Assembly: GCA_038049695.1 (NCBI GenBank)
Contig: CP142456.1
Span: 73,059,922 to 73,123,921 of the forward strand
Reading direction: 5' to 3'
From: Cinnamomum chago
Taxonomy: Eukaryota; Streptophyta; Magnoliopsida; Laurales; Lauraceae
DNA length: 64,000 nt
A program made the position numbers and the translations under genes. Numbering within the stretch: position 1 is the stretch's first letter; the number at the start of each line of letters is the position of its first letter. This document shows, piece after piece, positions 1-64,000 of this stretch. Under the pieces are notes generated by a model. It worked only from the letters and a program-made list of their open reading frames with translations, was not told the DNA's origin and did not search any database.

Positions 1-182
1 TCAAAGCTTTCGAAATCCTCGCCATTAGTCAAATTGAGATGGATCCCAAGATTTGCATGATCAATTAGAGAGTCCAGCCATCCAAATCGATGGTCTTGAA
101 AGTTTGCATATATTATACACACTCAGACGTCATAAACCCTCAAATGGAATAACCTATTATTTTGCATTGATGATAATTCAAG

Positions 183-476
183 CATGAGCAAAAGAGAGCA
201 CACATTGCGTCTGCCATTGAGTGCTACATGAAGGAGCATGGTGTATCGAGGCCTGAGGCTTGCCAAAAGATTCGAGAAATGGTTACATCAGCATGGAAGG
301 ACATTAACAAGTTCTGCCTCAAACCAATTCCCTTTCCATTGTCTCTACTTTTGCGAGTGGTCAACCTTACACGTGTGATAGAAGTAATCTACCTACATGG
401 AGATGGATACAGTGATTCCTTGGGTGAAACAAAAGAGATGATCAGTGCAATGCTTGTAAATCCTATTCCGATGTGA
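183..476 (+). CDS. TPS: Terpene synthase (TPS-a), copy A, last exon only
   Basis: This is exon 7 of a terpene synthase whose first six exons lie before the window. It follows an AG acceptor at 181-182 and ends at a TGA (474-476), encoding residues 461-557 by alignment with complete copies B-D. It supplies the last NSE/DTE metal ligand (Glu462) and the C-terminal helices, including the Asp534-Gly-Tyr536 element near the active-site lid that is typical of sesquiterpene synthases. Compared with the other copies it has Ile instead of Val at residue 468, and it shares Ser482 with copies C and D. Positions 1-182 are the 3' part of intron 6. The exon is intact; whether the rest of the gene is intact cannot be seen. 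Confidence 0.93.
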   Translation, partial: HEQKRAHIASAIECYMKEHGVSRPEACQKIREMVTSAWKDINKFCLKPIPFPLSLLLRVVNLTRVIEVIYLHGDGYSDSLGETKEMISAMLVNPIPM

Positions 477-668
477 AAAATACTCTCATAACCACTATGA
501 TTATATGTTTTCATATCAATGTTCTATTACTATAGGGGAGCGTTTTACCACTTGATTATTGATGCAAAAATCATGTAAAACTATCACATATATGAAACTA
601 GGTGGTAAAAAGCTTTGATTAATGCTTTACATTTTTTCTACAATCTCTCTCTCTCTCTCTCTGGAATA

Positions 669-1283
669 TGTTAGAAATGCATATTTGTTTTTGGGAAAAA
701 TAAAAACATGGTGGTTGAGTAGAGTTCCTGAATTAAATGTGTCGAATATCCTTTCAATTTTGTATGACAACCACTATTAAAAGTGGAAATAATTAAAACC
801 TTAAATGAGCTCTATTATGCGCTTCCTTGAGTTAGCGGAGGTTTAAAGTACAAAATAAAGAAAAATAAAAAACCTTCAAAGCACTCTCCTTCAATGAAAC
901 AAAAAGAAATTCTGGTCCAAAATGGGTGTCGGTATGAGATAGATCATATATACAAACTCGTTGTGAATGCTCTCAAGTCTTCGAGATGATTAACTTAAGG
1001 GTTCTCATCTCCCTTATATAGAGCAATCCCGAAGAGTCACAACGAGCAATCCCTAAGTTTCATGGCTACCACGGACTCTACCCTTCTAGGAATCCCATAT
1101 CTTCTAAACAGCATGGGATTTATGCCAAAGTGGAAGCTTGATCCTGATCCAAACTCCACAGCCAGGAGTTTGATCTTCACCTACTCTACCAGATCAAGAT
1201 TTGCTAAGAGTTTATCAGCGGCAACCCTCGGGATATATCTGGTGAGGGCCCCATGATAGTAGGGCCACATAATTTTCCTAACA
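669..1283 (-). mobile_element. Copia-like LTR (minus orientation), unit 1
   Basis: A ~615-bp segment bounded by TGTTAG on the left and CTAACA on the right, as expected of LTR ends. Read on the minus strand, the purine-rich AAATGGGAGAT just outside the right end followed by TGTTAGG resembles the polypurine tract and 3' LTR start of Ty1/Copia elements. No second LTR was found in the unit, so this is an old, broken remnant. It begins less than 200 bp after the terpene synthase stop codon. Family assignment rests on these end motifs only. Confidence 0.5.
699..704 (+). terminator. Possible polyadenylation signal AATAAA for the terpene synthase
   Basis: The first canonical AATAAA after the stop codon lies 222 bp downstream, 30 bp inside the Copia-like LTR. 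The same hexamer sits at 17815-17820, 34761-34766 and 51716-51721 behind copies B, C and D. Plant polyadenylation signals are loose, so this is only a candidate. Confidence 0.3.
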
Positions 1284-4156
1284 ATCTCCCATTTAGCTAG
1301 AATGTAATGTATATCAAACGTGCCATCATAAATCCAATATACTACGGTCCCTTCATTTATCTCTAGCCTACGATAGGGCTCAATGAAGGAAAACTCATCA
1401 ATTCTACTAGTGGGATCCACGAGATTGAAATCTCACCTTTGTAACCCACAGTTTAGATATACAGATAACACAATTCAATATAGTGAGGGATTGTGGAATT
1501 ATGGTTCCATTCATTGATGTGATGGCCGACTAAAAACATTTGCATCGGTTCATCGGTTCTTACCAATTTTGGATATCCATAAAGAGATCTAACCCGATGG
1601 ACCAATTTTGGATATCCATAAAGAGATCTAACCCGATGGCCAGTTGCGTTATTGCACTCTCTACAGAGCTACTAAGGGCAATTATCTCTATACCAGAAAT
1701 CAACACCTTTGCCAATGGTTAAAATATAACTAGACATAGACTCCCTCTTGTCCAAGTCACCATGCCCAGAGGCAACCATACAACCATGTAGTTCAAAAAA
1801 TAACAACCATGCGACAAAATGGTGTAGCAAATATTTTTTATGTACCCAAATTCCTCTTATTCACTTGTCATAACAGGCATACCATGATGACTTAGGAATC
1901 TAATTATGAGACAAATGGCGATCCATCTCTAGTCTCATAAATCTCGTATTAAAGTATCTTATGCACGATGAGGATGTCATGCATTATGCTCCTCCCACTA
2001 TTTGATCACGGCTTCAAGTGCAGAGCTTCAATTGCAGTAATAACTGGTAAGACCAGGTCGATCCACATGGAGCTTTAGAAATAAGGCTTTCCAACTCTGT
2101 CACATGCCCTAAATAAAATCTAATTTTAGCCTAAAATTTAGAAAAGTACATTCATCATTCCTACTTTAAACTAAAATTAAATACATTTCCAAAAATAAAA
2201 TTTCCTAAATCTAAAAACCTAATCTAAAATGAATCACAAGTTGCTACAAAAGAACACACAAATTAGAAACAATCCAAAAATAAAACTTACCAAAAATAAA
2301 ACTAAGAAGCTAAATTAAAAAAAAATGAACCTAAGTTAGAAACCAAATCAATCAAAACATGCTCAACATAGATTAGTAACAAATCAAATCACTCAAAAAG
2401 AAAACAACCTACTTTCTAAAATTAGCATGCAAACCTTACTAAATTAGTTTCCTAAATTATAAACTAGGTTAGTCAATTAGGGTTAATATATTTCCTAAGT
2501 TAGTGAATTGAGTTAATCAACTCCCTAAAGTTAAGGACTTTCCAAATAAATAAAGATTTTCAAATCTTAACAAATTTAGAAAGCACTAAGTCAATCATAC
2601 CTTATGTTAGAATTTCCAAATCTTAAGAAACTTCCTAAGTTAAAATCTTCAATTAACAAAAATTAAAAAGATCTTTTATTTGTGAAAATTATCTAAATAA
2701 TGTAAAACACAAAATCAAAAACTAATCCTAAAGTTAGAAAGTTAGTAATGCAATGTATGCCATGAGATGTTAGAAAATTCTAAGTCTAGAAAACTAATAT
2801 GCAGGGCTGTTTTTATGCATGATTTTTCCTAATCTAATGCAACCTAAAACTGAGTTTATTGGCTAGATTTTGAGCTACAATGATGTATGAATCAAATAAA
2901 AAAAAAAAAAAACCAGAAGTGGAAAACGATTTAAAACGAATGAGATATGAGTGTATGATCATGACCTAAAAAAAAAAACTATGCAGAAATTCTGCACACA
3001 GGTGGGTCCGACCAGCCATGTTTGAGCCACTGGTTCACCATCTTTCCAAAATTATTTTTGTTTGAAATTTGGGGGTTTAAAAATAAACTGATCAAACTTT
3101 AATTTCCCAAAGTTTCATTGAAAAATAATGTGTTTTGATCAAGTTTGTAATCGCAAACTTTTTACACAAAATCTGTCCTGAAATTCCTGCAACAATGTGC
3201 TGAATTGTGGACTTTATATTCAGATCCAGATTTCCCAAAAATTATTTGGCCGAGATTATTGACTCAAATCTCTGATTTTTCTTGCCTATTCAATTTCAAA
3301 CTCCGATTCCGGCAACTTAAACATATCTAAACTCCACCAATATGAATATGCATGCTATGCTAATTAGTACCAACCATAAACTATGCATAAAAATTCACAT
3401 AAACATATAAGAAGCAAAAGAAGAAAAGAAAACAACAAATGATTGAATTTAAATGTGTGGTGTAAAAAAAAATGTGTGGATTGCCTATGTAATTGAAAAA
3501 TTATGAATTGAAAAATTATGAATTGAAAAATTATTTTAATCATGAATGCCATGATCTTAGAATTTCAAAATCATCTTAGGCATTGATAGGTTCATATTTT
3601 GGAAAACACTTTTTGGATTTATTTAAACATGAAACCAAGAATGACTTCCATGACCTAAAATCCCACTTTGAAAATCACTTTCAATTCAAAAAATCTGCTA
3701 GTAGATCACCAGTAGGTCAGCAGGAGTTCAGCCTACCTGAGGTCGGCTAGCCGCCTGTATATGTTAGTGACCGTTAGAATATGATCGTTAGACGTCGGCT
3801 AGTGGCCCAAAGAGCCGTTGGAACCTTTTTTTACTATATATTGGAACCTATTCCTTGGGTTTTGAGCAAACACAATTGAATCTTTTGAGGTGTTTTGGAA
3901 CCTAAGGAAGGAGAATCAATTAAGGAAGGCTTATGGGTCACTTAATTGGAAAGCAAAAGCTTGGATTCATTAGTAAAATCAATCTAAGTAAGCTTTGATT
4001 TCCTTATCTTATATTAAATGCTTTGTTTAAATTATTGATAAATTAATTTTAGCATGTTAACTATGATTAGTTGAATCCATTACATGCATTTCACTTTTAA
4101 CATCTATCATATATTATAAGGGGCCGACTCCAATACAGGAACACTGCAACATAATA
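1284..4156. other. Non-coding intergenic stretch with retroelement debris, unit 1
   Basis: No credible gene. The part nearest 1284 looks like the 3' internal edge of the Copia-like fragment on the minus strand. From about 2100 to 3600 the DNA is very AT-rich with many A runs. Around 3720-3870 there is a GC-richer patch with two copies of GTCGGCTAG and repeated ACCGTTAG-type motifs followed by a TATATATT run, a composition common in the promoter part of plant LTRs; it may be another old LTR remnant. Equivalent stretches are 18400-21251, 35346-38204 and 52301-55158. Confidence 0.4.
1562..1639 (+). repeat. 39-bp perfect tandem duplication, unit 1
   Basis: Two adjacent identical 39-bp copies (1562-1600 and 1601-1639), each beginning ACCAATTTTGG and ending AACCCGATGG. 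The duplication is present in every unit (18678-18755, 35624-35701, 52579-52656), so it predates the array. Confidence 0.9.
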
Positions 4157-4165
4157 CCATGTCCC

Positions 4166-4652
4166 ATCAATCTCTATAAGCCCAAATTCCTTAGGCTCTC
4201 CTCCTTAACACAAATAGTGTGAGGACCATCCCCAAAATGAATCTTCTATTGCCCTAGTCTCCAATGCTTCCTCCAGGAAAGCTAGGAGAGGCAAATTTAA
4301 GGGAGCAGTAGTTGCTTTAGGACCTACTACAAGAAATTTAAGAGGTTGTCCTCCGCCCCAGGAGACCTTCATGATGTCTTTGTTAAAGGTTATGGATATC
4401 TTCTCCTTCTAGGCCAGCACTAGTAAAAGCTGAAGGCATGTCGATTTTTACTTTTATTTGCCCTATCAGCTTTATGTATTTAGCTCTCTTTAGGTGAAAG
4501 CTTTCTTTCTTTATTTTTTTTCCCACTTTCTGTCTATATTAGCTAGGCTTCTCTTTGTTGAGTCCTCAGATGTTTTGTCATTATGGTTGATTTTCTCAGC
4601 CCATATATATTTCCCTTTGCTTTTAATACAATTTACCTTATAGAAAAAAAAA
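4166..4652 (+). mobile_element. 5'-truncated LINE-like 3' tail, unit 1
   Basis: The segment ends with GCTTTTAATACAATTTACC, then TTATAG and a poly-A run, closely like the 3' ends of plant L1-type LINEs. It is flanked by CCATGTCCC (4157-4165) and CCATGTACC (4653-4661), an eight-of-nine match that could be the target-site duplication. No reverse transcriptase coding sequence is left, so only the tail inserted. This is the only unit where the tail is at full visible length (487 bp; 345-346 bp elsewhere). The 5' edge depends on accepting the imperfect duplication. Confidence 0.42.
4411..4552. other. 142-bp segment present only in unit 1
   Basis: Units 2-4 jump directly from the bases before 4411 to the bases after 4552. 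The segment is bracketed by a 5-bp direct repeat CTTCT (4406-4410 and 4548-4552), of which one copy remains in the other units. This is the pattern left by deletion between short repeats in the ancestor of units 2-4. A precise insertion in unit 1 is less likely, because the segment reads as a continuous part of the LINE-like tail. Confidence 0.85.
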
Positions 4653-4661
4653 CCATGTACC

Positions 4662-5862
4662 TTCCCAATTCCCCGTTTCAGTACATGCCACGCACTAATG
4701 ACTATGGTTTACCTTTCTTATTAATGACTTCTAGAAGCCATATAAAGTACCTTTATAGCTAGGCTGACACCAAGGACTTTATGTTTGTTAACCTTTTCAT
4801 ATTTTTTATATAAACTTTTTTCTCATGCGCGTGATTTTTTTTTATGCCTGTAGCTCTATCTTATTTAAATTTTATATATGTAAATTCTTTTTCAATTCAT
4901 CGTCATTGCTAAGAAATTAATGTGTTATTCAGAAATCAATGTGTTATTCCTACATTCACATATATATTGAAATAAACGTACGTTAATGGAATGATCTATA
5001 TTAAACTGTTTAGGACAAAACTTGTTAGGTAAAACAAAAGTATCCCACTTTAGATGCCTTTTGTTTTTCTGAAGATAACAATACGTACTACTAGACCATC
5101 ATTTTCTAAAATAAGTTAAAATAAAAAATATATATTTATGTGCATGTATGTATGTATGTATGTTCAAGGGGAAGCAGTTGGCCCTCTGTTTTTCGAAAAT
5201 GGATTTCAATCTATGTTTAATAAATCCACAGTAAACACACATTTACTGCTGAGAAGACATTTGAAAAACATTAAGGGGAAAATGAAAGATATTTATTGAT
5301 TTAGAAATGGTTACATAGGATTCCATTGTGGAAAACTTGCCGTGCACTAACTAATAAGTATATCTTGGGTGATTATATAGAGGATGAGACATGAATGAAG
5401 TAGGAGTAAAATGGGTAAGATTTGTATTGAAGGCCTATTTTAAACTTCCATTTACTTGGCTCAAATAATCACATTCAAAGAATAAATCCAGATGAAGCTT
5501 ATTAGTGTATGTTACTTGTAGATGTAGTGGTGATAACTTCAAAACAATAAATCAAGTTAATGGAAAAAAACTTGAAAAAGCACTTTTTACTTAGGGTTTA
5601 TTTGTTTTCATTGAATATACATAGGAATTAATGGTCAAATGAGATTTTCAAACAAGGGTTATTAAAGAGCCAAGGGCGAAGAAAATGAGGTGTGAGGTGA
5701 AAGATGTATGGAAGCTATCTATATGGGACCCTGACTTTCATACTATATATTTAAATTAATGAGGGCTGGATATTCACCTTTGACATTTCATTTTTAACGA
5801 CTTATATAAATATACTCTTAAAATTCTTAGGAATTCAATTACATGAACCACACAAGCTTTTA
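4662..5862. other. Intergenic DNA without recognisable features, unit 1
   Basis: AT-rich, with no credible ORF on either strand. Only simple features are seen: a short (TATG)n run near 5146-5163 and scattered A/T runs. Equivalent stretches lie at about 21615-22814, 38569-39768 and 55523-56722. Confidence 0.6.
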
Positions 5863-7308
5863 GGGCCTGTTCTTTACAACAATTCATAGAGTTTTTCTCT
5901 GGAAAATTTCAAAATCTCCGACAGCTATACCCTAATGTGGAATTCCTAAATCCTCCTCTTGAATGGAACATTTGAAATTCAAGAAAAATGCATAGAGATT
6001 CCCATCATTAATTGGGAACAAATGTAACATCATATACTTAACACCATTTCGTCTCTGATAAAAAAAGATTTCTTTGATCACTCAACTAACATTCTGAATA
6101 TTTTATGCCTAGAAAATGGATATTAAATGTTTCTATGCAAGATTGAGGGCCTACTCATTTAAGGATGAGTTAGAAAAAACACCACCTTAATCCAAATCAA
6201 ACATGCGAGATTACAAAGATAGCAAGTGTAAACCACATAACGTACTGAGTAGAAGCACTTGATGTAACAACTCTCTCCGTTTTAATTTCTTATTAACTTC
6301 TTAGGGTAACACGAGGAGGAGTATGTTTATAATGATGCATTTTTAATAGCATTTTAGAATCTTAAATCCACAATTTCCTCTTATGTAGTGCAATGTGGTG
6401 ATCATCATATCACGAGTTTTGAAAATAGCACTTATATTTTTCATTTATAAAGATTGATTCTAATTGTGATTTTGACAATCCCATTATAATTCATAAAAGA
6501 TGTTATTTGTATTATATTACATGTGCTAGACGCCGGTAGGTTAATTAAGCTAGTCTTAAAGATTTTTGAGATTTTCACAATTGATAGTGCAGTTTTTAAA
6601 GACTTGTTTCTTTGCAAGAATTTCTGACAGGAATTTAGGCTGTCTGTGAATTCCTGAATTGTAGTCGGAAATTCCATGTTCACTTGCTTGCATTCCCAGC
6701 ATTTGAGGCAAGTAGTATTTTGAAATTCCAAAAAAGTGGACTTCCCAAATGCTAGCCTTGACTCCAGCATTTACAAATTCAAGCATTCTGAGAGGCTTGT
6801 TGGAACTTCGGCTCTCCCCCAACGATTGATTTTAATCTTCTCCTCTATTCTACTGTAACAAAATCAAGTCCAGACATCTTCTTCCTCCACCCTCCTTTCA
6901 TATGTTTGCCTATTTTTCTCTTTTTTTTTTTTTTTTTTGCTGCATGCTATTTTTTCTAGAGGGTTTTGATGGAATGGAAAGAAGAAGGGTTTTTTGGGGT
7001 CTTAATGGAATGGAATCGGTGGGTTCTCTTAGATCTGAACCGGATGGTAAGTGACAGGGGCTATTTGGTTGGATGGATGGATTGATTTGTGGCTTGTGTT
7101 GGCTGAGAGATGAAGAAATTCAAATGGATATGAAGTCGAAAATTTTTGGAGTTTAGGTAGCCTGAAATTCTCAGGGAGGAATTTTGGCCTAAAAGAAACA
7201 AGAAATTTAGGAATACCAGAATTAATAGGACTTTAAAATTCCACCATCTCAAATTCTACAGGTTCCAACATACGTGAATTCTAAAAATTAATGCAAAGAA
7301 ACAGGCCC
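5863..7308. mobile_element. Non-autonomous DNA transposon candidate, 1446 bp, unit 1
   Basis: The left end begins GGGCCTGTTCTTTAC and the right end, read in reverse complement, begins GGGCCTGTTTCTTTGC, giving a terminal inverted repeat of about 14 bp with one gap. Termini starting GGGCCTGTTT are common in plant hAT and PIF/Harbinger elements. The interior has no transposase; short minus-strand ORFs near 6441-6822 and 7061-7252 resemble no family I know. A pure T run lies at about 6920-6938. I could not find a convincing target-site duplication, so the superfamily is left open. Confidence 0.45.
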
Positions 7309-7700
7309 GAAAAGTTAAGCAAAGAAATAATGTGAAACTTTCCCTTGTCCTTCACCATATTTCTCTTATTTCTATTGGCTGAGTTGTTATTTCATTTTCT
7401 GGGTCCCTTTTCTTTTCCAACTTCAACTTAAAACTACTCGTGGATAGGATCAACATCATGTCAGAATTGTTTATTACCATAGGAACATTCCATTTCACGA
7501 GGAGTACTGTCTAGAGTTTATTAGACATTCTCACCTAAAAAAAGACAACATATTTTTTTATGTGGCTCACCTCGCTTCTCCTACATAGTTGGCACCAATC
7601 TATTTCACAATAATTTTATATGTACTTGCTAGTAAGAGTTGGAATATAAAAAGAATCGATTAATTTAAAGAAGATTGTACTTTGTGGCTAATTTTTATTG
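7309..7700. other. Intergenic DNA without recognisable features, unit 1
   Basis: AT-rich sequence between the DNA transposon candidate and the SINE-like segment, without ORFs or repeats I can name. Equivalents are 24261-24652, 41215-41606 and 58169-58560. Confidence 0.6.
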
Positions 7701-7800
7701 GATTGTTGTAGCTCAGCTAGTTAGGGTAAATGTCAGAATGCACGAGTTCAAATGAACAATTGTGTTCCGCTCAAAGGAGAAAATTCACCAGTTAATATCA
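7701..7800 (+). mobile_element. SINE-like / tRNA-derived segment, unit 1
   Basis: TAGCTCAGCTAGTTAGGG at 7709-7726 is close to an RNA polymerase III A box in a tRNA context, and GAGTTCAAATG at 7744-7754 is a degenerate B box about 35 bp downstream, the spacing of a tRNA-derived SINE head. It cannot be folded into a full tRNA by eye, so it is more likely an old SINE or tRNA pseudogene than a working tRNA. Confidence 0.4.
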
Positions 7801-9929
7801 AGATAGTTATGAATTAAAAGTCGTCAGAAGTTTGGGTTTCTCTTGGATTATTGATGGAAATTAATGAAAAAAATAAAAATAGGAAAGGAATAAAACATAT
7901 TTGAAATCTTCACTCATATTGAAATATTCTTACTTTTAACGGTGTTTTTCACTTTCGTGCTGCACTTTTTGCTTAGGGGCTTGGTTTGGATAGGTGATTT
8001 TTGTGGGAGTGGTGGTCTCAGTGAAAAAAAAAATGAAAAACAAGCTTTTCCTAAATTTTAAGCAATCCTAAAAATTCTAATCGTGTAAAAGGGGCTTCAA
8101 TTAAAAAGTAAAACCGAAGAACCACAAATAGCCATTAAATAGTTTATTCGTAGATTAGAAAAACTAAAAGCAAGAAAAATCACAAGACTTGGAAAGAGTA
8201 AGTTTAGATGAGTAAAATGAAGTTTGACTTAGGTGAGGAAGCTTTTGGGTGAAAAAAATAGCCACAAGTGAGGTAGGAAGGTGTCACGTCCCCAGAACCC
8301 GATTAGAGAATAAACCGGATCCTTAGAGTGAAATTTAGGACTAATTAGAATTTTTGTCCTTTAGGCCCAAGGATCATAAGTTCGCTGTGAGGATATAATA
8401 TTTCAAGCCTCATGTATAATAAGAATTGCGAAGTTCATACAAATCTAGGCATATGGAATATCAACAATGGATAATGACTTCATTTAATAATTAAAGTTGC
8501 ACAAAAGAATAAACAAAACTAACCAAGGAGTTAATTAATTACACTGGCACTACTCTAACACTAGAAGAAACTCGCTCATTATCTAAACTCACTTAAATAT
8601 CTAAAATATAAATAATTATAAAAATAATAAAATAAACGGGTCAATGGGCCTACTATTGGGCCCAACTGACCCCAGTAAGGTCTTGGACCTTATAGAAGGT
8701 GGCTACCCAGATTTTTATTTTTTTCCATTTCTATTAAACATTACAGGGCTGGACGGATTGATCATTAGACATTACAATCTTTTCATTGAGCTTTCAAACC
8801 GGTACCAACGGATGGATCAAAAACTTTGACAAGGAGAAGTTGATGCTACACTTGGCCTGAAATCTAGCCAAACATCTTGACATCTAAAATACATACGCCA
8901 GAAATTCAAAATCAAGAAACCAGACGTCTAGAGTTGCGTTTAGATGTCAGGGGACAAGAAATCTAAAGATGATAGATGCCTAGGTTAATGTGAAGCAAAA
9001 GTTCCTTGTAGGGGATTTTATCGGAAAAACCCCCTTAAATTCGGTGGAGACCAAAAACTAGAATGGTCATAGAGGCTCTTTTCAGTTTTTTTCTTTCTTT
9101 TATTGTATCGAGTAGCAATATTGCTGCTCCTCTGTAAATATTGCTGCTCATTGCGTCACCTTCCTTCTTTTCTACTTTGCATGTCCACTATTCACTCATT
9201 CAACTAAGTAATGACGCATCTTGTTCTCTTAAATTATCTCCAAACTTCAAATCAAGCAATCAATACTGCAAACGACCCAAATTATTGTTGAATCATGAGC
9301 GCTCATTTAAATTAAACAAACAACCCTTTGCCCCAAACGAGGAGACTTCCAGCTCAGAGCCATAAATATTCCTTTAGTATTACTTAAATTACAAAAACAA
9401 ATACCTGGGATTTAGTAGAGGAGAAACTTCTCTAGCCAGAGAACTACACGACCAGTCTAGTTCTATGGGCCCCACATACGCCCGCATTTGATCAATGCAG
9501 CTCCATTCGCAGTCTTTAGTCCCCATGATTTAGCACCATGTGCAACTTTGTGGTCATCAAACCTTTCTTCGTCATTGGATTGAATTTCAATTTTCAAAAT
9601 ATCTACAGTTAAAAGACCATTAAATCTTAAGACTCTTAAATCGAGGACTACAATTGACATTTTGCATGACCCTTATCGGTAAAAAGACCTTTCGCATCTA
9701 CCTCTAATGGCACAAACGCATCCAAGTGGGCCCCACGAGCTGGACTACAAGCAGAGTATGTGGTCTGCTCGTAGGTGAAGATTTTGATCCTTTAATTAGT
9801 AGGATTGGTTTTCTGTTAAATACTTCAGAAGAAAATTGGTCTCCTCTAGCAAACAATCTCTTTTGGATTAGTAAACGGTTGCGACTGCTGAGTATTTAGG
9901 TAAAACATTCCTTTTGTGATTGAAACTAA
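7801..9929. other. Upstream intergenic region of copy B
   Basis: No gene. TGTCACGTCCCCAGAACCCG at 8282 looks like the start of a plant Gypsy-type LTR, but I cannot find a matching end. A 13-bp direct repeat AATATTGCTGCTC occurs twice at about 9117-9150. The last kilobase is likely the proximal promoter; AAACGGTTG near 9881, about 45 bp before the TATA box, matches a MYB core. Equivalents are 24753-26880, 41707-43834 and 58661-60788. Confidence 0.4.
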
Positions 9930-9937
9930 TATAAATA
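9930..9937 (+). promoter_or_regulatory. TATA box of terpene synthase copy B
   Basis: TATAAATA lies 181 bp before the chosen ATG, placing the expected transcription start near 9960-9970 and a leader of about 150 nt. A second weaker TTTAAATA at 10031-10038 could start a short leader. Confidence 0.5.
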
Positions 9938-10117
9938 CCAAGTTTTATAGCTAGCCAGACAGCTCAACGGCCTTAGCAAAAAACCCTTTTTGCTTGTCCT
10001 CTAGCAAACACATCCCTTTCCCACACACCTTTTAAATACCCAGCCATGCCATGCTTTGATATATTCATACACATTTTAAATCAGATTTCCTTACACACAC
10101 ACACACATTCTAGCAGT

Positions 10118-17592: not shown

Positions 17593-17784
17593 AAAATACT
17601 CTCATAACCACTATGATTATATGTTTTCATATCAATGTTCTATTACTATAGGGGAGCGTTTTACCACTTGATTATTGATGCAAAAATCATGTAAAACTAT
17701 CACATATATGAAACTAGGTGGTAAAAAGCTTTGATTAATGCTTTTCATTTTTTCTACAATCTCTCTCTCCCTCTCTCTGGAATA

Positions 17785-18399
17785 TGTTAGAAATGCATAT
17801 TTGTTTTTGGGAAAAATAAAAACATGGTGGTTGAGTAGAGTTCCTGAATTAAATGTGTCGAATATCCTTTCAATTTTGTATGACAACCACTATTAAAAGT
17901 GGAAATAATTAAAACCTTAAATGAGCTCTATTATGCGCTTCCTTGAGTTAGCGGAGGTTTAAAGTACAAAATAAAGAAAAATAAAAAACCTTCAAAGCAC
18001 TCTCCTTCAATGAAACAAAAAGAAATTCTGGTCCAAAATGGGTGTCGGTATGAGATAGATCATATATACAAACTCGTTGTGAATGCTCTCAAGTCTTCGA
18101 GATGATTAACTTAAGGGTTCTCATCTCCCTTATATAGAGCAATCCCGAAGAGTCACAACGAGCAATCCCTAAGTTTCATGGCTACCACGGACTCTACCCT
18201 TCTAGGAATCCCATATCTTCTAAACAGCATGGGATTTATGCCAAAGTGGAAGCTTGATCCTGATCCAAACTCCACAGCCAGGAGTTTGATCTTCACCTAC
18301 TCTACCAGATCAAGATTTGCTAAGAGTTTATCAGCGGCAACCCTCGGGATATATCTGGTGAGGGCCCCATGATAGTAGGGCCACATAATTTTCCTAACA
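17785..18399 (-). mobile_element. Copia-like LTR, unit 2
   Basis: Counterpart of the LTR after copy A, with the same TGTTAG/CTAACA ends and length of 615 bp. It is an old broken remnant inherited with the unit. Confidence 0.5.
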
Positions 18400-18677
18400 A
18401 TCTCCCATTTAGCTAGAATGTAATGTATATCAAACGTGCCATCATAAATCCAATATACTACGGTCCCTTCATTTATCTCTAGCCTACGATAGGGCTCAAT
18501 GAAGGAAAACTCATCAATTCTACTAGTGGGATCCACGAGATTGAAATCTCACCTTTGTAACCCACAGTTTAGATATACAGATAACACAATTCAATATAGT
18601 GAGGGATTGTGGAATTATGGTTCCATTCATTGATGTGATGGCCGACTAAAAACATTTGCACCGGTTCATCGATTCTT

Positions 18678-43834: not shown

Positions 43835-43842
43835 TATAAATA
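43835..43842 (+). promoter_or_regulatory. TATA box of terpene synthase copy D
   Basis: TATAAATA, with the ATG at 44023; spacing equals copies B and C. Confidence 0.5.
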
Positions 43843-51493: not shown

Positions 51494-51685
51494 AAAATAC
51501 TCTCATAACCACTATGATTATATGTTTTCATATCAATGTTCTATTACTATAGGGGAGCGTTTTACCACTTGATTATTGATGCAAAAATCATGTAAAACTA
51601 TCACATATATGAAACTAGGTGGTAAAAAGCTTTGATTAATGCTTTTCATTTTTTCTACAATCTCTCTCTCCCTCTCTCTGGAATA

Positions 51686-52300
51686 TGTTAGAAATGCATA
51701 TTTGTTTTTGGGAAAAATAAAAACATGGTGGTTGAGTAGAGTTCCTGAATTAAATGTGTCGAATATCCTTTCAATTTTGTATGACAACCACTATTAAAAG
51801 TGAAAATAATTAAAACCTTAAATGAGCTCTATTATGCGCTTCCTTGAGTTAGCGGAGGTTTAAAGTACAAAATAAAGAAAAATAAAAAACCTTCAAAGCA
51901 CTCTCCTTCAATGAAACAAAAAGAAATTCTGGTCCAAAATGGGTGTCGGTATGAGATAGATCATATATACAAACTCGTTGTGAATGCTCTCAAGTCTTCG
52001 AGATGATTAACTTAAGGGTTCTCATCTCCCTTATATAGAGCAATCCCGAAGAGTCACAACGAGCAATCCCTAAGTTTCATGGCTACCACGGACTCTACCC
52101 TTCTAGGAATCCCATATCTTCTAAACAGCATGGGATTTATGCCAAAGTGGAAGCTTGATCCTGATCCAAACTCCACAGCCAGGAGTTTGATCTTCACCTA
52201 CTCTACCAGATCAAGATTTGCTAAGAGTTTATCAGCGGCAACCCTCGGGATATATCTGGTGAGGGCCCCATGATAGTAGGGCCACATAATTTTCCTAACA
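51686..52300 (-). mobile_element. Copia-like LTR, unit 4
   Basis: 615 bp with TGTTAG/CTAACA ends; inherited broken remnant. Confidence 0.5.
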
Positions 52301-52578
52301 ATCTCCCATTTAGCTAGAATGTAATGTATATCAAACGTGCCATCATAAATCCAATATACTACGGTCCCTTCATTTATCTCTAGCCTACGATAGGGCTCAA
52401 TGAAGGAAAACTCATCAATTCTACTAGTGGGATCCACGAGATTGAAATCTCACCTTTGTAACCCACAGTTTAGATATACAGATAACACAATTCAATATAG
52501 TGAGGGATTGTGGAATTATGGTTCCATTCATTGATGTGATGGCCGACTAAAAACATTTGCACCGGTTCATCGATTCTT

Positions 52579-52656
52579 ACCAATTTTGGATATCCATAAA
52601 GAGATCTAACCCGATGGACCAATTTTGGATATCCATAAAGAGATCTAACCCGATGG
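52579..52656 (+). repeat. 39-bp tandem duplication, unit 4
   Basis: Two adjacent identical 39-bp copies. Confidence 0.9.
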
Positions 52657-55167
52657 CCAGTTGCGTTATTGCATTCTCTACAGAGCTACTAAGGGCAATT
52701 ATCTCTATACCAGAAATCAACACCTTTGCCAATGGTTAAAATATAACTAGACATAGACTCCCTCTTGTCCAAGTCACCATGCCCAGAGGCAACCATACAA
52801 CCATGTAGTTCAAAAAATAACAACCATGCGACAAAATGGTGTAGCAAATATTTTTTATGTACCCAAATTCCTCTTATTCACTTGTCATAACAGGCATACC
52901 ATGATGACTTAGGAATCTAACTATGAGACAAATGGCGATCCATCTCTAGTCTCATAAATCTCGTATTAAAGTATCTTATGCACGATGAGGATGTCATGCA
53001 TTATGCTCCTCCCACTATTTGATCACGGCTTCAAGTGCAGAGCTTCAATTGCAGTAATAACTGGTAAGACCAGGTCGATCCACATGGAGCTTTAGAAATA
53101 AGGCTTTCCAACTCTGTCACATGCCCTAAATAAAATCTAATTTTAGCCTAAAATTTAGAAAAGTACATTCATCATTCCTACTTTAAACTAAAATTAAATA
53201 CATTTCCAAAAATAAAATTTCCTAAATCTAAAAACCTAATCTAAAATGAATCACAAGTTGCTACAAAAGAACACACAAATTAGAAACAATCCAAAAATAA
53301 AACTTACCAAAAATAAAACTAAGAAGCTAAATTAAAAAAAAATGAACCTAAGTTAGAAACCAAATCAATCAAAACATGCTCAACATAGATTAGTAACAAA
53401 TCAAATCACTCAAAAAGAAAACAACCTACTTTCTAAAATTAGCATGCAAACCTTACTAAATTAGTTTCCTAAATTATAAACTAGGTTAGTCAATTAGGGT
53501 TAATATATTTCCTAAGTTAGTGAATTGAGTTAATCAACTCCCTAAAGTTAAGGACTTTCCAAATAAATAAAGATTTTCAAATCTTAACAAATTTAGAAAG
53601 CACTAAGTCAATCATACCTTATGTTAGAATTTCCAAATCTTAAGAAACTTCCTAAGTTAAAATCTTCAATTAACAAAAATTAAAAAGATCTTTTATTTGT
53701 GAAAATTATCTAAATAATGTAAAACACAAAATCAAAAACTAATCCTAAAGTTAGAAAGTTAGTAATGCAATGTATGCCATGAGATGTTAGAAAATTCTAA
53801 GTCTAGAAAACTAATATGCAGGGCTGTTTTTATGCATGATTTTTCCTAATCTAATGCAACCTAAAACTGAGTTTATTGGCTAGATTTTGAGCTACAATGA
53901 TGTATGAATCAAATAAAAAAAAAAAAAACCAGAAGTGGAAAACGAATTTAAAACGAATGAGATATGAGTGTATGATCATGACCTAAAAAAAAAACTATGC
54001 AGAAATTCTGCACACAGGTGGGTCCGACCAGCCATGTTTGAGCCACTGGTTCACCATCTTTCCAAAATTATTTTTGTTTGAAATTTGGGGGTTTAAAAAT
54101 AAACTGATCAAACTTTAATTTCCCCAAGTTTCATTGAAAAATAATGTGTTTTGATCAAGTTTCTAATCGCAAACTTTTTACACAAAATCTGTCCTGAAAT
54201 TCCTGCAACAATGTGCTGAATTGTGGACTTTATATTCAGATCCAGATTTCCCAAAAATTATTTGGCCGAGATTATTGACTCAAATCTCTGATTTTTCTTG
54301 CTTATTCAATTTCAAACTCCGATTCCGGCAACTTAAACATATCTAAACTCCACCAATATGAATATGCATGCAATGCTAATTAGTACCAACCATAAACTAT
54401 GCATAAAAATTCACATAAACATATAAGAAGCAAAAGAAGAAAAGAAAACAACAAATGATTGAATTTAAATGTGTGGTGTAAAAAAAAAATGTGTGGATTG
54501 CCTATGTAATTGAAAAATTATGAATTGAAAATTTATTTTAATCATGAATGCCATGATCTTAGAATTTCAAAATCATCTTAGGCATTGATAGGTTCATATT
54601 TTGGAAAACACTTTTTGGATTTATTTAAACATGAAACCAAGCATGACTTCCATGACCTAAAATCCCACTTTGAAAATCACTTTCATTTCAAAAAATCTGC
54701 TAGTAGATCACCAGTAGGTCAGCAGGAGTTCAGCCTACCTGAGGTCGGCTAGCCGCCTGTAAATGTTAGTGACCGTTAGAATATGACCGTTAGACGTCGG
54801 CTAGTGGCCCAAAGAGCCGTTGGAACCTTTTTTTACTATATATTTGAACCTATTCCTTGGGTTTTGAGCCAACACAATTGAATCTTTTGAGGTGTTTTGG
54901 AACCTAAGGAAGGAGAATCAATTAAGGAAGGCTTATGGGTCACTTAATTGGAAAGCAAAAGCTTGGATTCATTAGTAAAATCAATCTAAGTAAGCTTTGA
55001 TTTCCTTATCATATATTAAATGCTTTGTTTAAATTATTGATAAATTAATTTTAGCATGTTAACTATGATTAGTTGAATCCATTACATGCATTTCACTTTT
55101 AACATCTATCATATATTATAAGGGGCCGACTCCAATACAGGAACACTGCAACATAATACCATGTCCC

Positions 55168-55513
55168 ATCAATCTCTATAAGCCCAAATTCCTTAGGCTC
55201 TCCTCCTTAACACAAATAGTGTGAGGACCCTCCCCAAAACGAATCTTCTATTGCCCTAGTCTCCAATGCTTCCTCCAGGAAAGCTAGGAGAGGCAAATTT
55301 AAGGGAGCAGTAGTTGCTTTAGGACCTACTACAAGAAATTTAAGAGGTTGTCCTCCGCCCCAGGAGACCTTCATGATGTCTTTGTTAAAGGTTATGGATA
55401 TCTTCTCCTTCTCTTTGTTGAGTCCTCAGATGTTTTGTCATTATGGTTGATTTTCTCAGCCCATATATATTTCCCTTTGCTTTTAATACAATTTACCTTA
55501 TAGAAAAAAAAAA
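55168..55513 (+). mobile_element. LINE-like 3' tail with internal 142-bp loss, unit 4
   Basis: Poly-A ends at 55513; flanked by CCATGTCCC (55159-55167) and CCATGTACC (from 55514). Confidence 0.42.
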
Positions 55514-56722
55514 CCATGTACCTTCCCAATTCCCCGTTTCAGTACATGCCACGCACTAATGACTATGGTTTACCTTTCTTATTAATGACTTCTAGAAGCC
55601 ATATAAAGTACCTTTATAGCTAGGCTGACACCAAGGACTTTATGTTTGTTAACCTTTTCATATTTTTTATATAAACTTTTTTCTCATGCGCGTGATTTTT
55701 TTTATGCCTGTTGCTCAATCTTATTTAAATTTTATATATGTAAATTCTTTTTCAATTCATCGTCATTGCTAAGAAATTAATGTGTTATTCAGAAATCAAT
55801 GTGTTATTCCTACATTCACATATATATTGAAATAAACGTACGTTAATGGAATGATCTATATTAAACTGTTTAGGACAAAACTTGTTAGGTAAAACAAAAG
55901 TATCCCACTTTAGATGCCTTTTGTTTTTCTGAAGATAACAATACGTACTACTAGACCATCCTTTTCTAAAATAAGTTAAAATAAAAAATATATATTTATG
56001 TGCATGTATGTATGTATGTATGTTCAAGGGGAAGCAGTTGGCCCTCTGTTTTTCAAAAATGGATTTCAATCTATGTTTAATAAATCCACAGTAAACACAC
56101 ATTTACTGCTGAGAAGACATTTGAAAAACATTAAGGGGAAAATGAAAGATATTTATTGATTTAGAAATGGTTACATAGGATCCCATTGTGGAAAACTTGC
56201 CGTGCACTAACTAATAAGTATATCTTGGGTGATTATATAGAGGATGAGACATGACTGAAGTAGGAGTAAAATGGGTAAGATTTGTATTGAAGGCCTATTT
56301 TAAACTTCCATTTACTTGGCTCAAATAATCACATTCAAAGAATAAATCCAGATGAAGCTTATTAGTGTATGTTACTTGTAGATGTAGTGGTGATAACTTC
56401 AAAACAATAAATCAAGTTAATGGAAAATAACTTGCAAAAGCACTTTTTACTTAGGGTTTATTTGTTTTCATTGAATATACATAGGAATTAATGGTCAAAT
56501 GAGATTTTCAAACAAGGGTTATTAAAGAGCCAAGGGCGAAGAAAATGAGGTGTGAGGTGAAAGATGTATGGAAGCTATCTATATGGGACCCTGACTTTCA
56601 TACTATATATTTAAATTAATGAGGGCTGGATATTCACCTTTGACATTTCATTTTTAACGACTTATATAAATATACTCTTAAAATTCTTAGGAATTCAATT
56701 ACATGAACCACACAAGCTTTTA

Positions 56723-58168
56723 GGGCCTGTTCTTTACAACAATTCATAGAGTTTTTCTCTGGAAAATTTCAAAATCTCCGACAGCTATACCCTAATGTGG
56801 AATTCCTAAATCCTCCTCTTGAATGGAACATTTGAAATTCAAGAAAAATGCATAGAGATTCCCATCATTAATTGGGAACAAATGTAACATCATATACTTA
56901 ACACCATTTCGTCTCTGATAAAAAAAGATTTCTTTGATCACTCAACTAACATTCTGAATATTTTATGCCTAGAAAATGGATATTAAATGTTTCTATGCAA
57001 GATTGAGGGCCTACTCATTTAAGGATGAGTTAGAAAAAACACCACCTTAATCCAAATCAAACATGCGAGATTACAAAGATAGCAAGTGTAAACCACATAA
57101 CGTACTGAGTAGAAGCACTTGATGTAACAACTCTCTCCGTTTTAATTTCTTATTAACTTCTTAGGGTAACACGAGGAGGAGTATGTTTATAATGATGCAT
57201 TTTTAATAGCATTTTAGAATCTTAAATCCACAATTTCCTCTTATGTAGTGCAATGTGGTGATCATCATATCACGAGTTTTGAAAATAGCACTTATATTTT
57301 TCATTTATAAAGATTGATTCTAATTGTGATTTTGACAATCCCATTATAATTCATAAAAGATGTTATTTGTATTATATTACATGTGCTAGACGCCGGTAGG
57401 TTAATTAAGCTAGTCTTAAAGATTTTTGAGATTTTCACAATTGATAGTGCAGTTTTTAAAGACTTGTTTCTTTGCAAGAATTTCTGACAGGAATTTAGGC
57501 TGTCTGTGAATTCCTGAATTGTAGTCGGAAATTCCATGTTCACTTGCTTGCATTCCCAGCATTTGAGGCAAGTAGTATTTTGAAATTCCAAAAAAGTGGA
57601 CTTCCCAAATGCTAGCCTTGACTCCAGCATTTACAAATTCAAGCATTCTGAGAGGCTTGTTGGAACTTCGGCTCTCCCCCAACGATTGATTTTAATCTTC
57701 TCCTCTATTCTACTGTAACAAAATCAAGTCCAGACATCTTCTTCCTCCACCCTCCTTTCATATGTTTGCCTATTTTTCTCTTTTTTTTTTTTTTTTTTGC
57801 TGCATGCTATTTTTTCTAGAGGGTTTTGATGGAATGGAAAGAAGAAGGGTTTTTTGGGGTCTTAATGGAATGGAATCGGTGGGTTCTCTTAGATCTGAAC
57901 CGGATGGTAAGTGACAGGGGCTATTTGGTTGGATGGATGGATTGATTTGTGGCTTGTGTTGGCTGAGAGATGAAGAAATTCAAATGGATATGAAGTCGAA
58001 AATTTTTGGAGTTTAGGTAGCCTGAAATTCTCAGGGAGGAATTTTGGCCTAAAAGAAACAAGAAATTTAGGAATACCAGAATTAATAGGACTTTAAAATT
58101 CCACCATCTCAAATTCTACAGGTTCCAACATACATGAATTCTAAAAATTAATGCAAAGAAACAGGCCC
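56723..58168. mobile_element. Non-autonomous DNA transposon candidate, unit 4
   Basis: 1446 bp with the same GGGCCTGTT termini. Confidence 0.45.
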
Positions 58169-58560
58169 GAAAAGTTAAGCAAAGAAATAATGTGAAACTT
58201 TCCCTTGTCCTTCACCATATTTCTCTTATTTCTATTGGCTGAGTTGTTATTTCATTTTCTGGGTCCCTTTTCTTTTCCAACTTCAACGTAAAACTACTCG
58301 TGGATAGGATCAACATCATGTCAGAATTGTTTATTACCATAGGAACATTCCATTTCACGAGGAGTACTGTCTAGAGTTTATTAGACATTCTCACCTAAAA
58401 AAAGACAACATATTTTTTTATGTGGCTCACCTCGCTTCTCCTACATAGTTGGCACCAATCTATTTCACAATAATTTTATATGTACTTGCTAGTAAGAGTT
58501 GGAATATAAAAAGAATCGATTAATTTAAAGAAGATTGTACTTTGTGGCTAATTTTTATTG

Positions 58561-58660
58561 GATTGTTGTAGCTCAGCTAGTTAGGGTAAATGTCAGAATG
58601 CACGAGTTCAAATGAACAATTGTGTTCCGCTCAAAGGAGAAAATTCACCAGTTAATATCA
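58561..58660 (+). mobile_element. SINE-like / tRNA-derived segment, unit 4
   Basis: A box-like TAGCTCAGCTAG begins at 58569. Confidence 0.4.
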
Positions 58661-60788
58661 AGATAGTTATGAATTAAAAGTCGTCAGAAGTTTGGGTTTC
58701 TCTTGGATTATTGATGGAAATTAATGAAAAAAATAAAAATAGGAAAGGAATAAAACATATTTGAAATCTTCACTCATATTGAAATATTCTTACTTTTAAC
58801 GGTGTTTTTCACTTTCGTGCTGCACTTTTTGCTTAGGGGCTTGGTTTGGATAGGTGATTTTTGTGGGAGTGGTGGTCTCAGTGAAAAAAAAAATGAAAAA
58901 CAAGCTTTTCCTAAATTTTAAGCAATCCTAAAAATTCTAATCTTGTAAAAGGGGCTTCAATTAAAAAGTAAAACCGAAGAACCACAAATAGCCATTAAAT
59001 AGTTTATTCGTAGATTAGAAAAACTAAAAGCAAGAAAAATCACAAGACTTGGAAAGAGTAAGTTTAGATGAGTAAAATGAAGTTTGACTTAGGTGAGGAA
59101 GCTTTTGGGTGAAAAAAATAGCCACAAGTGAGGTAGGAAGGTGTCACGTCCCCAGAACCCGATTAGAGAATAAACCGGATCCTTAGAGTGAAATTTAGGA
59201 CTAATTAGAATTTTTGTCCTTTAGGCCCAAGGATCATAAGTTCGCTGTGAGGATATAATATTTCAAGCCTCATGTATAATAAGAATTGCGAAATTCATAC
59301 AAATCTAGGCATATGGAATATCAACAATGGATAATGACTTCATTTAATAATTAAAGTTGCACAAAAGAATAAACAAAACTAACCAAGGAGTTAATTAATT
59401 ACACTGGCACTACTCTAACACTAGAAGAAACTCGCTCATTATCTAAACCCACTTAAATATCTAAAATATAAATAATTATAATAATAATAAAATAAACGGG
59501 TCAATGGGCCTACTATTGGGCCCAACTGACCCAGTAAGGTCTTGGACCTTATAGAAAGTGGCTACCCAGATTTTTATTTTTTTCCATTTCTATTAAACAT
59601 TACAGGGCTGGACGGATTGATCATTAGACATTACAATCTTTTCATTGAGCTTTCAAACCGGTACCAACGGATGGATCAAAAACTTTGACAAGGAGAAGTT
59701 GATGCTACACTTGGCCTGAAATCTAGCCAAACATCTTGACATCTAAAATACATACGCCAGAAATTCAAAATCAAGAAACCAGACGTCTAGAGTTGCGTTT
59801 AGATGTCAGGGGACAAGAAATCTAAAGATGATAGATGCCTAGGTTAATGTGAAGCAAAAGTTCCTTGTAGGGGATTTTATCGGAAAAACCCCCTTAAATT
59901 CGGTGGAGACCAAAAACTAGAATGGTCATAGAGGCTCTTTTCAGTTTTTTTCTTTCTTTTATTGTATCGAGTAGCAATATTGCTGCTCCTCTGTAAATAT
60001 TGCTGCTCATTGAGTCACCTTCCTTCTTTTCTACTTTGCATGTCCACTATTCACTCATTCAACTAAGTAATGACGCACCTTGTTCTCTTAAATTATCTCC
60101 AAACTTCAAATCAAGCAATCAATACTGCAAACGACCCAAATTATTATTGAATCAAGAGCACTCGTTTAAATTAAACAAACAACCCTTTGCCCCAAACGAG
60201 GAGACTTCCAGCTCAGAGCCATAAATATTCCTTTAGTATTACTTAAATTACAAAAACAAATACCTGGGATTTAGTAGAGGAGAAACTTCTCTAGCCAGAG
60301 AACTACACGACCAGTCTAGTTCTATGGGCCCCACATACGCCCGCATTTGATCAATGCAGCTCCATTCGCAGTCTTTAGTCCCCATGATTTAGCACCATGT
60401 GCAACTTTGTGGTCATCAAACCTTTCTTCGTCATTGGATTGAATTTCAATTTTCAAAATATCTACAGTTAAAAGACCATTAAATCTTAAGACTCTTAAAT
60501 CGAGGACTACAATTGACATTTTGCATGACCCTTATCGGTAAAAAGACCTTTCGCATCTACCTCTAATGGCACAAACGCATCCAAGTGGGCCCCACGAGCT
60601 GGACTACAAGCAGAGTATGTGGTCTGCTCGTAGGTGAAGATTTTGATCCTTTAATTAGTAGGATTGGTTTTCTGTTAAATACTTCAGAAGAAAATTGGTC
60701 TCCTCTAGCAAACAATCTCTTTTGGATTAGTAAACGGTTGCGACTGCTGAGTATTTAGGTAAAACATTCCTTTTGTGATTGAAACTAA

Positions 60789-60796
60789 TATAAATA
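60789..60796 (+). promoter_or_regulatory. TATA box of terpene synthase copy E
   Basis: TATAAATA, 181 bp from box end to ATG spacing as in the other copies. Confidence 0.5.
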
Positions 60797-60976
60797 CCAA
60801 GTTTTATAGCTAGCCAGACAGCTCAACGGCCTTAGCAAAAAACCCTTTTTGCTTGTCCTCTAGCAAACACATCCCTTTCCCACACACCTTTTAAATACCC
60901 AGCCATGCCATGCTTTGATATATTCATACACATTTTAAATCAGATTTCCTTACACACACACACACATTCTAGCAGT

Positions 60977-63091
60977 ATGGCTTCCCTAAGTTCCTCTCCT
61001 GTTGCTTCAGCCCTCCATCCCACACCTCTAAATACAAACAAAAATGGTGCTGACCGTCCATCACCATTTCATCCTTCTGTTTGGGGAGATTACTTCCTTT
61101 CTTACTCCGACGGTCACGAGGTATATATTCACACATTCTTTGTTTTGAGAAATGATCGCATGATGATGATTTTATACATGTCATGTCAACTACCGTGAGG
61201 CTCATCTTTGTTTGATCCAAGTCATTCATATCATGCAACTTCTCATGACGAGAAAGTCTCTCCAACTTTCATTCCATTAACTGGTTAATACGCAAATGTA
61301 AAGCAAAAGAGAGCTTGTTATGTTTGTGTATGTTTGTTTGTTTGTTAGATCCATTGTAGCGAAGGGATTTTTACAGTTTAGTATCTCTTAAACTTAATTT
61401 GCACATGAAAATGTTACTAAAGACATAAAAAAATGTCACCAAAGTAACTTCACTGTATTTTATCTTTTCTAATTTTTGACAGTCTTGCCCATTCTTTGAT
61501 CTGTGTTTTAACTTTTGAGGCTCTTTTTACCAAAATAAATAAATAAATTTTGAGGCCCTGAAGTGATTGAAGTATTATGTTGCAAGTAGGTTAACTTGTG
61601 TGATCGGGATTTAACCCCATCATTTATTACATTATAAGTTGTTTAGTTTGATCCCATCATATTCCTAGACCTTAAATGACCCCTCTACATTCCTGCTCAA
61701 GGAGGTTGTTTTGTTTTCCACCCCAGCCAAGGGGGCTGGGACCTACAATAGCACCTGGCACCCGCACACGTGAGAAGAAAGCCCGCACAAATGAACAGAG
61801 AGTCTGCGTACACATGGAAAGGGAGTGTAAGCAGCTGAAAAGGGGTAACTTAAAAAAGGATCGAACTTTAGGTAGCTGAATGAGATTTGGAGTTGCCAAT
61901 CAAGCAACCCCTTGTACTCAAGAAAGTTGGGTCCCAGTGCAGTTGGCTGCAGTAAAAAAAAAAAAAAAATCTTGTCAGGGCTGAAAAATGATAACGGGCT
62001 TTATTTTTAGAAGATAACGTCAGCCAGGTCAACACAAATCAGATGCATCTTATCCACCATTCTCCATGGGATATTTCCATCCGTCCTCAAAACATGATAG
62101 AACGTGGGGTATTAAGCAGGCCCCACAAGGAGGCCCTCCCTTATATAGATTTGCAAAAAAGCATCACTTTTCTCATCTATCTTCCATGATAGAAATTATT
62201 ATTTTTACCAACTAATCACTTTTAATTTGCAATGGGACATGGACAGAAAATAGATGCATGGACTAGCAAGGTTGGAGAGTTGAAGGAAAAAGTGAAGAGG
62301 ATGCTAATCACATCCAAGGGATCAGTTGAAGAAACGATCATGATTGATGACATCCAACGACTTGGAGTGGCCTATCACTTTGAAAAGGAGATCAACGACG
62401 CATTGGAACATATATATGAGGCCAATGTTGATTATGATGATCTAAAAACAGTCGCTCTTCGATTCCAATTACTGAGGCAAAAGGGCTATAACATCTCTTG
62501 TGGTAAAACTTCTTCACTATTTTATATCACTCATTCTTGGCAAACTGAACAACAAACAAAATAATTAGATATATGTGGACATTTAATTACCAAAGGTAAG
62601 TGTGTCCCGCTATGGGGCCTATCGATATTTTATCCGGTAGGTATGATACAATATGATTATTGTATCAATGGATCAACCTTAGGAAATTGAAATCATTAAT
62701 TATTTGATCATGAACTAGATGTATTCAACAAGTTCAAAGACAGTGAAGGCAATTTCAAGGAAAGTTTATGTAGTGATGTGGAGGGCCTGTTAAGTCTCTA
62801 CGAAGCGGCATTTTATGGCACACATGGAGAAGATACATTGGATGAGGCCATCTCTTTCACAGGAGGACAACTTACGTCTCTCATGACCCATCTTGATGGT
62901 CGTCTTGCAGCACAAGTAGGTCATGCGCTTGAGCTACCTATGCGCAAGCGCATTCCAAGGCTAGAAGCAAGATCTTATATCTCACTCTTCCAGCAACAGA
63001 AGCAGCCAAATGATGTTCTCCTAGAGCTTGCAAAGTTGGATTTCAATTTGGTACAGTCAATGCATCGAATAGAGCTAAAGGAGCTGACAAG
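60977..63091 (+). CDS. TPS: Terpene synthase (TPS-a), copy E, exons 1-3 (cut by window end)
   Basis: Exons 60977-61120, 62247-62502 and 62719-63091 encode residues 1-257 and part of 258, the N-terminal beta-type helical domain with RX8W at Arg27-Trp36. The translation is identical to copies B-D over this span. Intron 3 opens with GTAAGT at 63092 and continues to the window end; by the period, exon 4 with the DDxxD motif would begin about 170 bp beyond it. The visible part is intact. Confidence 0.93.
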
Positions 63092-64000
63092 GTAAGTATC
63101 AACAAACCACACTTATATAGCACCAACATATATCACTTCATTTATCTTATTATATGTAAATGAGACTGAGGGGCTACTCCTAAGCAGAAAAAAAGGCTAT
63201 GATGATGACCGAACAATTTGTTGGGGCTTATCTAGAAGCATGCAAATCAATTGGAGTAGGGGGTGGAAAGATCTATGCATGCATAAAGGAAGGCCCTACA
63301 ATCAATACAATCAAATTATTATAGATATAAATTTTTGGGCCCACCTAACTATGATGCATGCGTCTCGCTTGGGGGATCGAATGATCCACGCAAGGTGAGC
63401 TCATTTGTGAAATCTCATGTACTTAATCCAACATGTTCGCCCCTTGATCTGTAACCCTAAATTTAAAGATTTTAGCGGGAACAATTTTCAATTACAATCC
63501 TATGGTCCAGTCCATTCAAATCATTGTCAACCCGTGGGATCACGTGGGGCCCTAGGTGAGCCCCATTGGTTGTCTCACACCGAGAAAGTCATTCACACGA
63601 GCATTTCAATCTGCATCGTTTTTTTTTTTCGATTACTACCTTATTCTAAATACGTCATTGATGTTAAAAGAAAACACCATTTGTAAAAACTTTGAACAAA
63701 TACATATGACACAAATTGTGAGTCATTCTTAATTGTTGGTTTCATGTGTTAATTTGATACACTGTGCAATTTTCACAAACGTGACTCTCACGCAGCTCCA
63801 ACATTCGAGTTTTAGTCAAAGCCTTTAATTTAGGGGATCCTGCTTTTATGGACAGCATCGATTAAAAATTCACACCATTCATATGTGGGGAGTCCCTTAA
63901 AAGTAAAAAGCCCATGACAGTACATCTATGATGCTAAAAAACGACATGGATACGGCATGTATACGCCATGGACACATCAAAGACATGAATTTTACATATA

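Follow-up and report, generated by a model that had tools for sequence, protein, structure and literature searches.

A single terpene synthase (TPS) gene appears to have been amplified into a tandem array of two tiers in the genome of Cinnamomum chago. The window, a stretch of 64,000 bp at C6:73059922-73123921, lies within this array, which spans ~225 kb (C6:72934916-73159499). One tier consists of ~17-kb units that carry the gene copies G0-G6. The other, to the left of it and outside the window, consists of 12 short units of 9,408 bp. It is very probable, in our assessment, that the 17-kb amplification took place inside a 3.03-kb tandem repeat and was followed by gene loss and the re-amplification of a 9.4-kb unit. 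The copying was probably driven largely by recombination and not by a need for more enzyme. The assembly is 1.06 Gb in 14 contigs, 12 of which are 56.6-134.3 Mb long; the other two, of 707,525 bp and 152,753 bp, look like mitochondrial and plastid genomes.

The 17-kb tier is evident from the offsets at which common 24-mers accumulate in the window (16954/16955, 16951, 16946 and 17116). Units start at window positions 1, 17117, 34063 and 51018, and the spacings of 17116, 16946 and 16955 bp bear out the head-to-tail array, with five gene copies in parts, that an earlier note on this DNA had described. The window contains three whole units and most of a fourth, with three whole and two partial gene copies. 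All units are on the + strand. Unit A (window 1..17116; 17,116 bp) holds the 3' end of G0, a spacer and G1 through intron 6, with G1 exon 7 falling in unit B. Unit B (window 17117..34062; 16,946 bp) is the reference, and unit coordinates (U) are counted from its first base, window 17117, as U1. Unit C (window 34063..51017; 16,955 bp) is followed by the first part of unit D (window 51018..64000), which ends beyond the window at C6:73127891. Chance is excluded as the source of this likeness, which extends over 16.9 kb at ≥99.6% identity. The end of G2 is 9,484 bp from the next ATG, in agreement with the ~9.5 kb of intergenic DNA noted previously. Transposon remnants are indeed carried along, as a dispersed repeat at U2003-3487 (window 19119..20603, + strand) lies in the spacer of every 17-kb unit read; compared with its copies on C4 and C5, it is cut at U3487. 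Repeats inside one 17-kb unit were not detected in a search with a minimum of 60 bp and a seed of 14, and the unit therefore has no long terminal repeat (LTR) pair of its own by this search. A minisatellite in intron 4 (~62 bp x 3.4 copies, window 13587-13798) recurs at the corresponding position of units B and C and is carried in each unit.

G2 (window 27069..34538, + strand) serves as the reference gene copy. It has seven exons of 144, 256, 373, 219, 139, 249 and 294 bp (window 27069-27212, 28337-28592, 28809-29181, 30260-30478, 31282-31420, 33687-33935 and 34245-34538) separated by GT-AG introns, and it encodes 557 amino acids. The gene model was assembled by hand and verified exon by exon. 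A Pfam comparison of window 1-4800, made six-frame style with stops as X, gave no family. In the 557-amino acid protein, both domains of a plant class I terpene synthase were found, PF01397 at 194.2 bits (cut-off 37.6) and PF03936 at 317.6 bits (cut-off 26.3). The translation also contains DDIFD and DDIQSNEHE, which we take to be the DDxxD and NSE/DTE metal-binding motifs, and the gene is a class I terpene synthase. The top matches among solved structures, over nearly the whole query, are (-)-cyperene synthase (7xkw, 496 bits) and (+)-delta-cadinene synthase (3g4d, 495 bits); the residue alignment shows the array protein to be clearly diverged from both. Scores of 448-496 bits are reached by cyperene, cadinene, vetispiradiene, bicyclogermacrene, aristolochene and drimenol synthases, of 388-390 by amorphadiene synthase and of ≤362 by the rest. 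Given the subfamily labels that we assume for these enzymes, the TPS-a assignment made earlier is, by score ranking, the best fit and the most likely subfamily. The predicted activity is of the sesquiterpene-synthase type.

Both array ends were located after 80 kb had been added on each side of the window and another 20 kb on the left. They lie outside the 64 kb, as claimed before; the uniformity claimed with them does not extend beyond the window, where the array turns into the truncated unit. Exons 1-2 are present in 19 copies: six whole genes, one three-exon copy and 12 on the 9,408-bp units. A promoter probe matched the same 19 places on C6, all on the + strand (formally at least 19, with 40 of 453 candidates scored), and exon 3 has seven copies on C6 (40 of 70 candidates scored). 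The whole genes G0-G5 lie between C6:73050576 and 73147674, and all six have open frames and GT-AG introns. G0 (C6:73050576-73060397) carries a solo LTR in intron 4 and reaches the window with exon 7 (window 183..476). G1 (window 10118..17592) is whole with an open frame, and G3 (window 44023..51493) is whole. G4 has exons 1-3 in the window (60977..63091) and ends at C6:73128367. These copies are on the + strand. At the right edge, G6 has exons 1-3 only and stops at U12289.

The short unit is composed of U5245-11649, then a 915-bp piece designated X, and then U1867-3968. Seven of the 12 copies (n6-n12) were read whole, n1 and n2 were read over 7,461 bp and 7,545 bp, and n3-n5 come from search matches; n6 is 9,406 bp long. 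In the window, the retained parts correspond to positions 22361..28765 (promoter and exons 1-2) and 18983..21084, both on the + strand, and the short units themselves occupy C6:72934916-73045863. X corresponds to the 3' portion of an element that has two ~2.34-kb copies in the array, I1 in G0 intron 4 and I2 in the spacer preceding G5, each a single insertion. Both copies begin with TG and end with CA, and each is flanked by an exact target duplication of 5 bp (GCCCC and TGGTT). Their direct repeats are internal and none is terminal, and they are therefore read as solo LTRs. X was rejected as a complete element because it starts at ~1296-1304 of I1 and is thus 5'-truncated. At the left side of X, the right end of U5245-11649 meets the LTR fragment, and intron 2 and the LTR have the 8-bp microhomology ATGGATCA in common. 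A further 1.28 kb, U3969-5244, is also absent from the short unit. A relative on C2 retains U4491-5576 (with a gap) and one on C3 retains U4345-11162 in pieces, so the loss in this region is derived. Exons 1-2 are open, and the GT sites that follow them are both retained, in all seven of the short units checked; there is no catalytic-domain exon.

Divergence between copies is low and unevenly distributed. Units B-E differ pairwise by 14-22 substitutions in ~16.95 kb (0.08-0.13%), and A differs from B-E by 52-58 (0.31-0.34%). The substitutions number 39-50 in ~12.3 kb for unit F and 80-84 in ~11.7 kb for Z, the unit that carries G0. The coding sequences of G2-G5 are identical. G1 is one base off (S482P), G0 is six bases off with four amino-acid changes, and G6 is seven bases off in 773 bp with two amino-acid changes. 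The 17-kb tier therefore has a homogenised middle and diverged edges, in agreement with unequal crossing-over, which predicts greater difference in the edge copies. Head-to-tail repetition that includes the spacers, together with interior copies that are more alike than the edge copies, fits a tandem segmental amplicon with concerted evolution. The 24-mer offsets, few substitutions and identical coding sequences uphold the proposed recent tandem amplification of one TPS gene. The statement that copies differ only by scattered bases and short changes fails for unit A, which has an additional 142-bp piece (window 4411..4552, + strand). This piece is present in the C3 relative and absent from B-F, where one CTTCT is left; polarised by the C3 relative, the absence is a shared deletion. 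Among the fully read short units, pairwise differences are 0-5 substitutions: n7, n9 and n10 agree in every one of their 9,408 bp, n6 differs from these by one indel and no substitution, and 1-5 substitutions separate the remaining pairs. Copy n1, at the edge, is set apart from these seven units by 25-28 substitutions in ~7.46 kb.

In a tree built from ~4.6 kb of promoter region, with the C3 relative as root, Z joins n2 and n6-n12 in a clade with support of 99, and the left part of G0's unit is accordingly of the short-tier kind. The simplest order would be that the 17-kb tier came first, that its middle was homogenised and that the short tier was then amplified. If 2-7e-9 substitutions per site and year are assumed, the interior 17-kb copies would be separated by about 70-250 thousand years and the short copies by no more than ~40-130 thousand, figures affected by homogenisation, which gives copies a younger appearance. 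Several points weigh against this account. The leftmost short unit, n1, falls outside the clade of Z, n2 and n6-n12; since it also differs from the others as described, the short unit may have a greater age than its interior copies suggest, and have been homogenised later instead of produced in one recent burst. F groups with E (support 70), and the other branches have supports of ≤80. Copies n3-n5 are unread and n1 and n2 partly read, and the copy number would depend on the assembly, above all for the identical short units. Lastly, the exact first duplication junction has been placed in an interval only.

This interval comes from relatives of the gene elsewhere in the genome. The closest partial relative, C2:67834060-67839636 (- strand), matches exons 5-7 at 95.0-97.6%, with bases 46-294 of exon 7 matched as one piece. 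Exons 5-7 are joined there to U4491-5576, the promoter and exons 1-4 are gone, and a ~1.1-kb insert splits exon 7. As a founder, this locus is closer than the other candidate and lacks exons 1-4. The other, C2:67196667-67207208 (exons 2-7), was rejected: it is 81.5-92.8% identical by exon, has a stop in exon 2, and exon 1 was not found in the stretch fetched. The promoter side is matched at ~88-90% by C3:25620701-25626758. Beyond C6, exon 3 matches 33 places on C2 and C3 (40 of 70 candidates scored), and these matches and relatives together place the gene in a clade whose members cluster on C2 and C3. Downstream homology to C2 is clear until ~U885, with a weak inverted match beyond, upstream homology to C3 begins at ~U4345, and the dispersed repeat between them is cut at U3487. 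The first duplication junction is therefore narrowed, by comparison of these loci, to what is probably an interval of about U885-U4345. Of the extension proposed in the earlier note, both array ends were thus obtained and the breakpoint only as this interval.

Other TPS loci were observed alongside these relatives. C2:66.5-69.0 Mb is a dense cluster of relatives and holds many of the 40 exon-3 matches, at 87-93% identity. Three promoter-region relatives with 89% identity at C3:25620793, 25665316 and 25708353 (- strand) are ~44 kb apart and represent a larger-unit tandem array of a related gene. At C7:7487446-7626166, five TPS N-terminal exon matches with nearly equal profile scores (85.0 bits) are spaced by 38.7, 38.4, 31.0 and 30.3 kb and are probably another near-uniform TPS array, judged by scores alone. 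Such regularly spaced matches of equal score, as at C7:7.49-7.63 Mb, weaken the earlier generalisation that TPS clusters usually have diverged copies. Three C-terminal TPS matches at C7:13836497, 14083539 and 14337214, ~250 kb apart, have identical scores of 105.3 bits and the same stop pattern in 320-amino acid frames, and are possibly large-unit duplicates.

Both flanks of the array consist of one ~3.03-kb tandem repeat with ~92% identity between monomers. On the left (C6:72925351-72933983), the repeat breaks off at monomer position 1273, where an inverted LTR fragment (72933984-72934915) adjoins it. The right flank (C6:73159496-73177871) begins at monomer position 1861, and CAAA is common to flank repeat and unit at this junction. 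Because the same repeat is found on both sides, the TPS block sits inside a tandem-repeat array. The repeat is also found at C11:29.59 Mb (2 of 2,849 candidates scored). In one monomer, near-perfect inverted ends of 15 bp, TAGGGTTCCAAACGG and CCGTTTGCAACCCTA, bound a 523-bp stretch, which we presume to resemble a hAT-type element.

In the proposed sequence of events, a segment with one sesquiterpene-synthase-type gene would have arrived inside the 3.03-kb repeat array on C6. Amplification as ~17-kb units would have produced the six whole genes, together with one copy that breaks off after exon 3. A unit at the left would subsequently have lost most of its gene when intron 2 was joined, at the 8-bp microhomology, to the LTR fragment downstream of the gene. 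The same unit would have lost a further 1.28 kb of spacer, and the resulting 9.4-kb unit, with promoter and exons 1-2, would have been amplified again to twelve copies. Unequal crossing-over is the likely copying process for this order, and the second amplification may have been neutral or recombination-driven. The six whole genes would make an active enzyme on this account.

Gene-dosage selection, raised in the earlier note, would hold that a need for enzyme drove the array and maintains it. Of the seven gene copies on 17-kb units, six are whole with an open frame, G2-G5 have identical coding sequences, and TPS duplication has been tied to defence and scent in Lauraceae in the sections of the literature consulted (PMC10496300). 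However, the most numerous, most uniform and most recently amplified unit lacks catalytic exons, and dosage selection therefore cannot be the general cause. The identity also spans the ~9.5-kb spacer, and recent exchange alone would yield the same. As an account of the whole array, this explanation is unlikely, although it may apply to the six whole genes.

Less likely still is an assembly artefact, in which the assembler multiplied a few real copies or laid two haplotypes end to end. The exact identity of n7, n9 and n10, and the lack of substitutions in n6, make the number of short units hard for an assembler to fix, and the 3-kb repeat flank is followed closely on its right by a 5,000-N gap (C6:73178422), 19 kb right of the array. 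Against this, units A, B, C, D and E have 44, 8, 4, 5 and 7 private bases, I1 and I2 are each in one unit only with their exact target duplications, B-F share the 142-bp deletion, and the array stretches examined (C6:72949922-72979921 left out) contain no N. The private bases, solo LTRs and deletion speak against an artefact for the 17-kb copies, but not for the number of identical short units; on the assembled sequence, the amplification appears real. Rolling-circle amplification, in which an extrachromosomal circle of the unit serves as template and the resulting array is reinserted at a single stroke, agrees with the identical neighbouring 9.4-kb units but is improbable given the graded divergence and diverged edges of the 17-kb units, as stepwise exchange predicts, and with no second array of the unit found by the promoter probe among the candidates scored.

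The closest published parallel found is the EPSPS tandem amplicon of Kochia scoparia, and amplification of this kind is already known. The portions of that report drawn on describe two dominant repeat types of 56.1 and 32.7 kb, a mobile element having 7 bp in common with the beginning of the short repeat, and a proposal of unequal crossing-over (PMC6808082). Both loci have tandem units of one gene in a long and a short repeat type. Unlike the array described here, where the short type is without catalytic exons, both Kochia types retain EPSPS and herbicide selection is known. In C. chago, an LTR fragment marks both the 9.4-kb junction and the left edge of the array, and the interval to which the 17-kb junction is narrowed holds a truncated dispersed repeat. 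Tandem TPS clusters are also known in Lauraceae such as Cinnamomum kanehirae and C. camphora, where TPS-a and TPS-b are expanded (PMC6784883, PMC10496300). These resemble the present array as clustered tandem duplicates; in the parts consulted, the accounts describe clusters of subfamily members, not units identical over spacers or a truncated tier. Searches of an open-licence library listed no paper whose title concerns this locus or a tier of truncated TPS copies.

Counting the array by its first exons (19) overstates the number of whole genes (six) about threefold. Tentatively, and with more doubt than confidence, the 9.4-kb tier could be a satellite being born from a gene, in which a promoter, two exons and an LTR fragment, trapped within a pre-existing 3-kb tandem repeat array, have lost gene function and now multiply and homogenise like other repeat DNA. 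More boldly, the twelve promoter copies may titrate factors from the six whole genes or help silence them. Arrays of uniform genes are often taken as a sign of dosage selection; in this case, the unit that looks youngest and has been copied most cannot make enzyme. This one locus lets recombination-driven copy number be told apart from selection-kept copy number.

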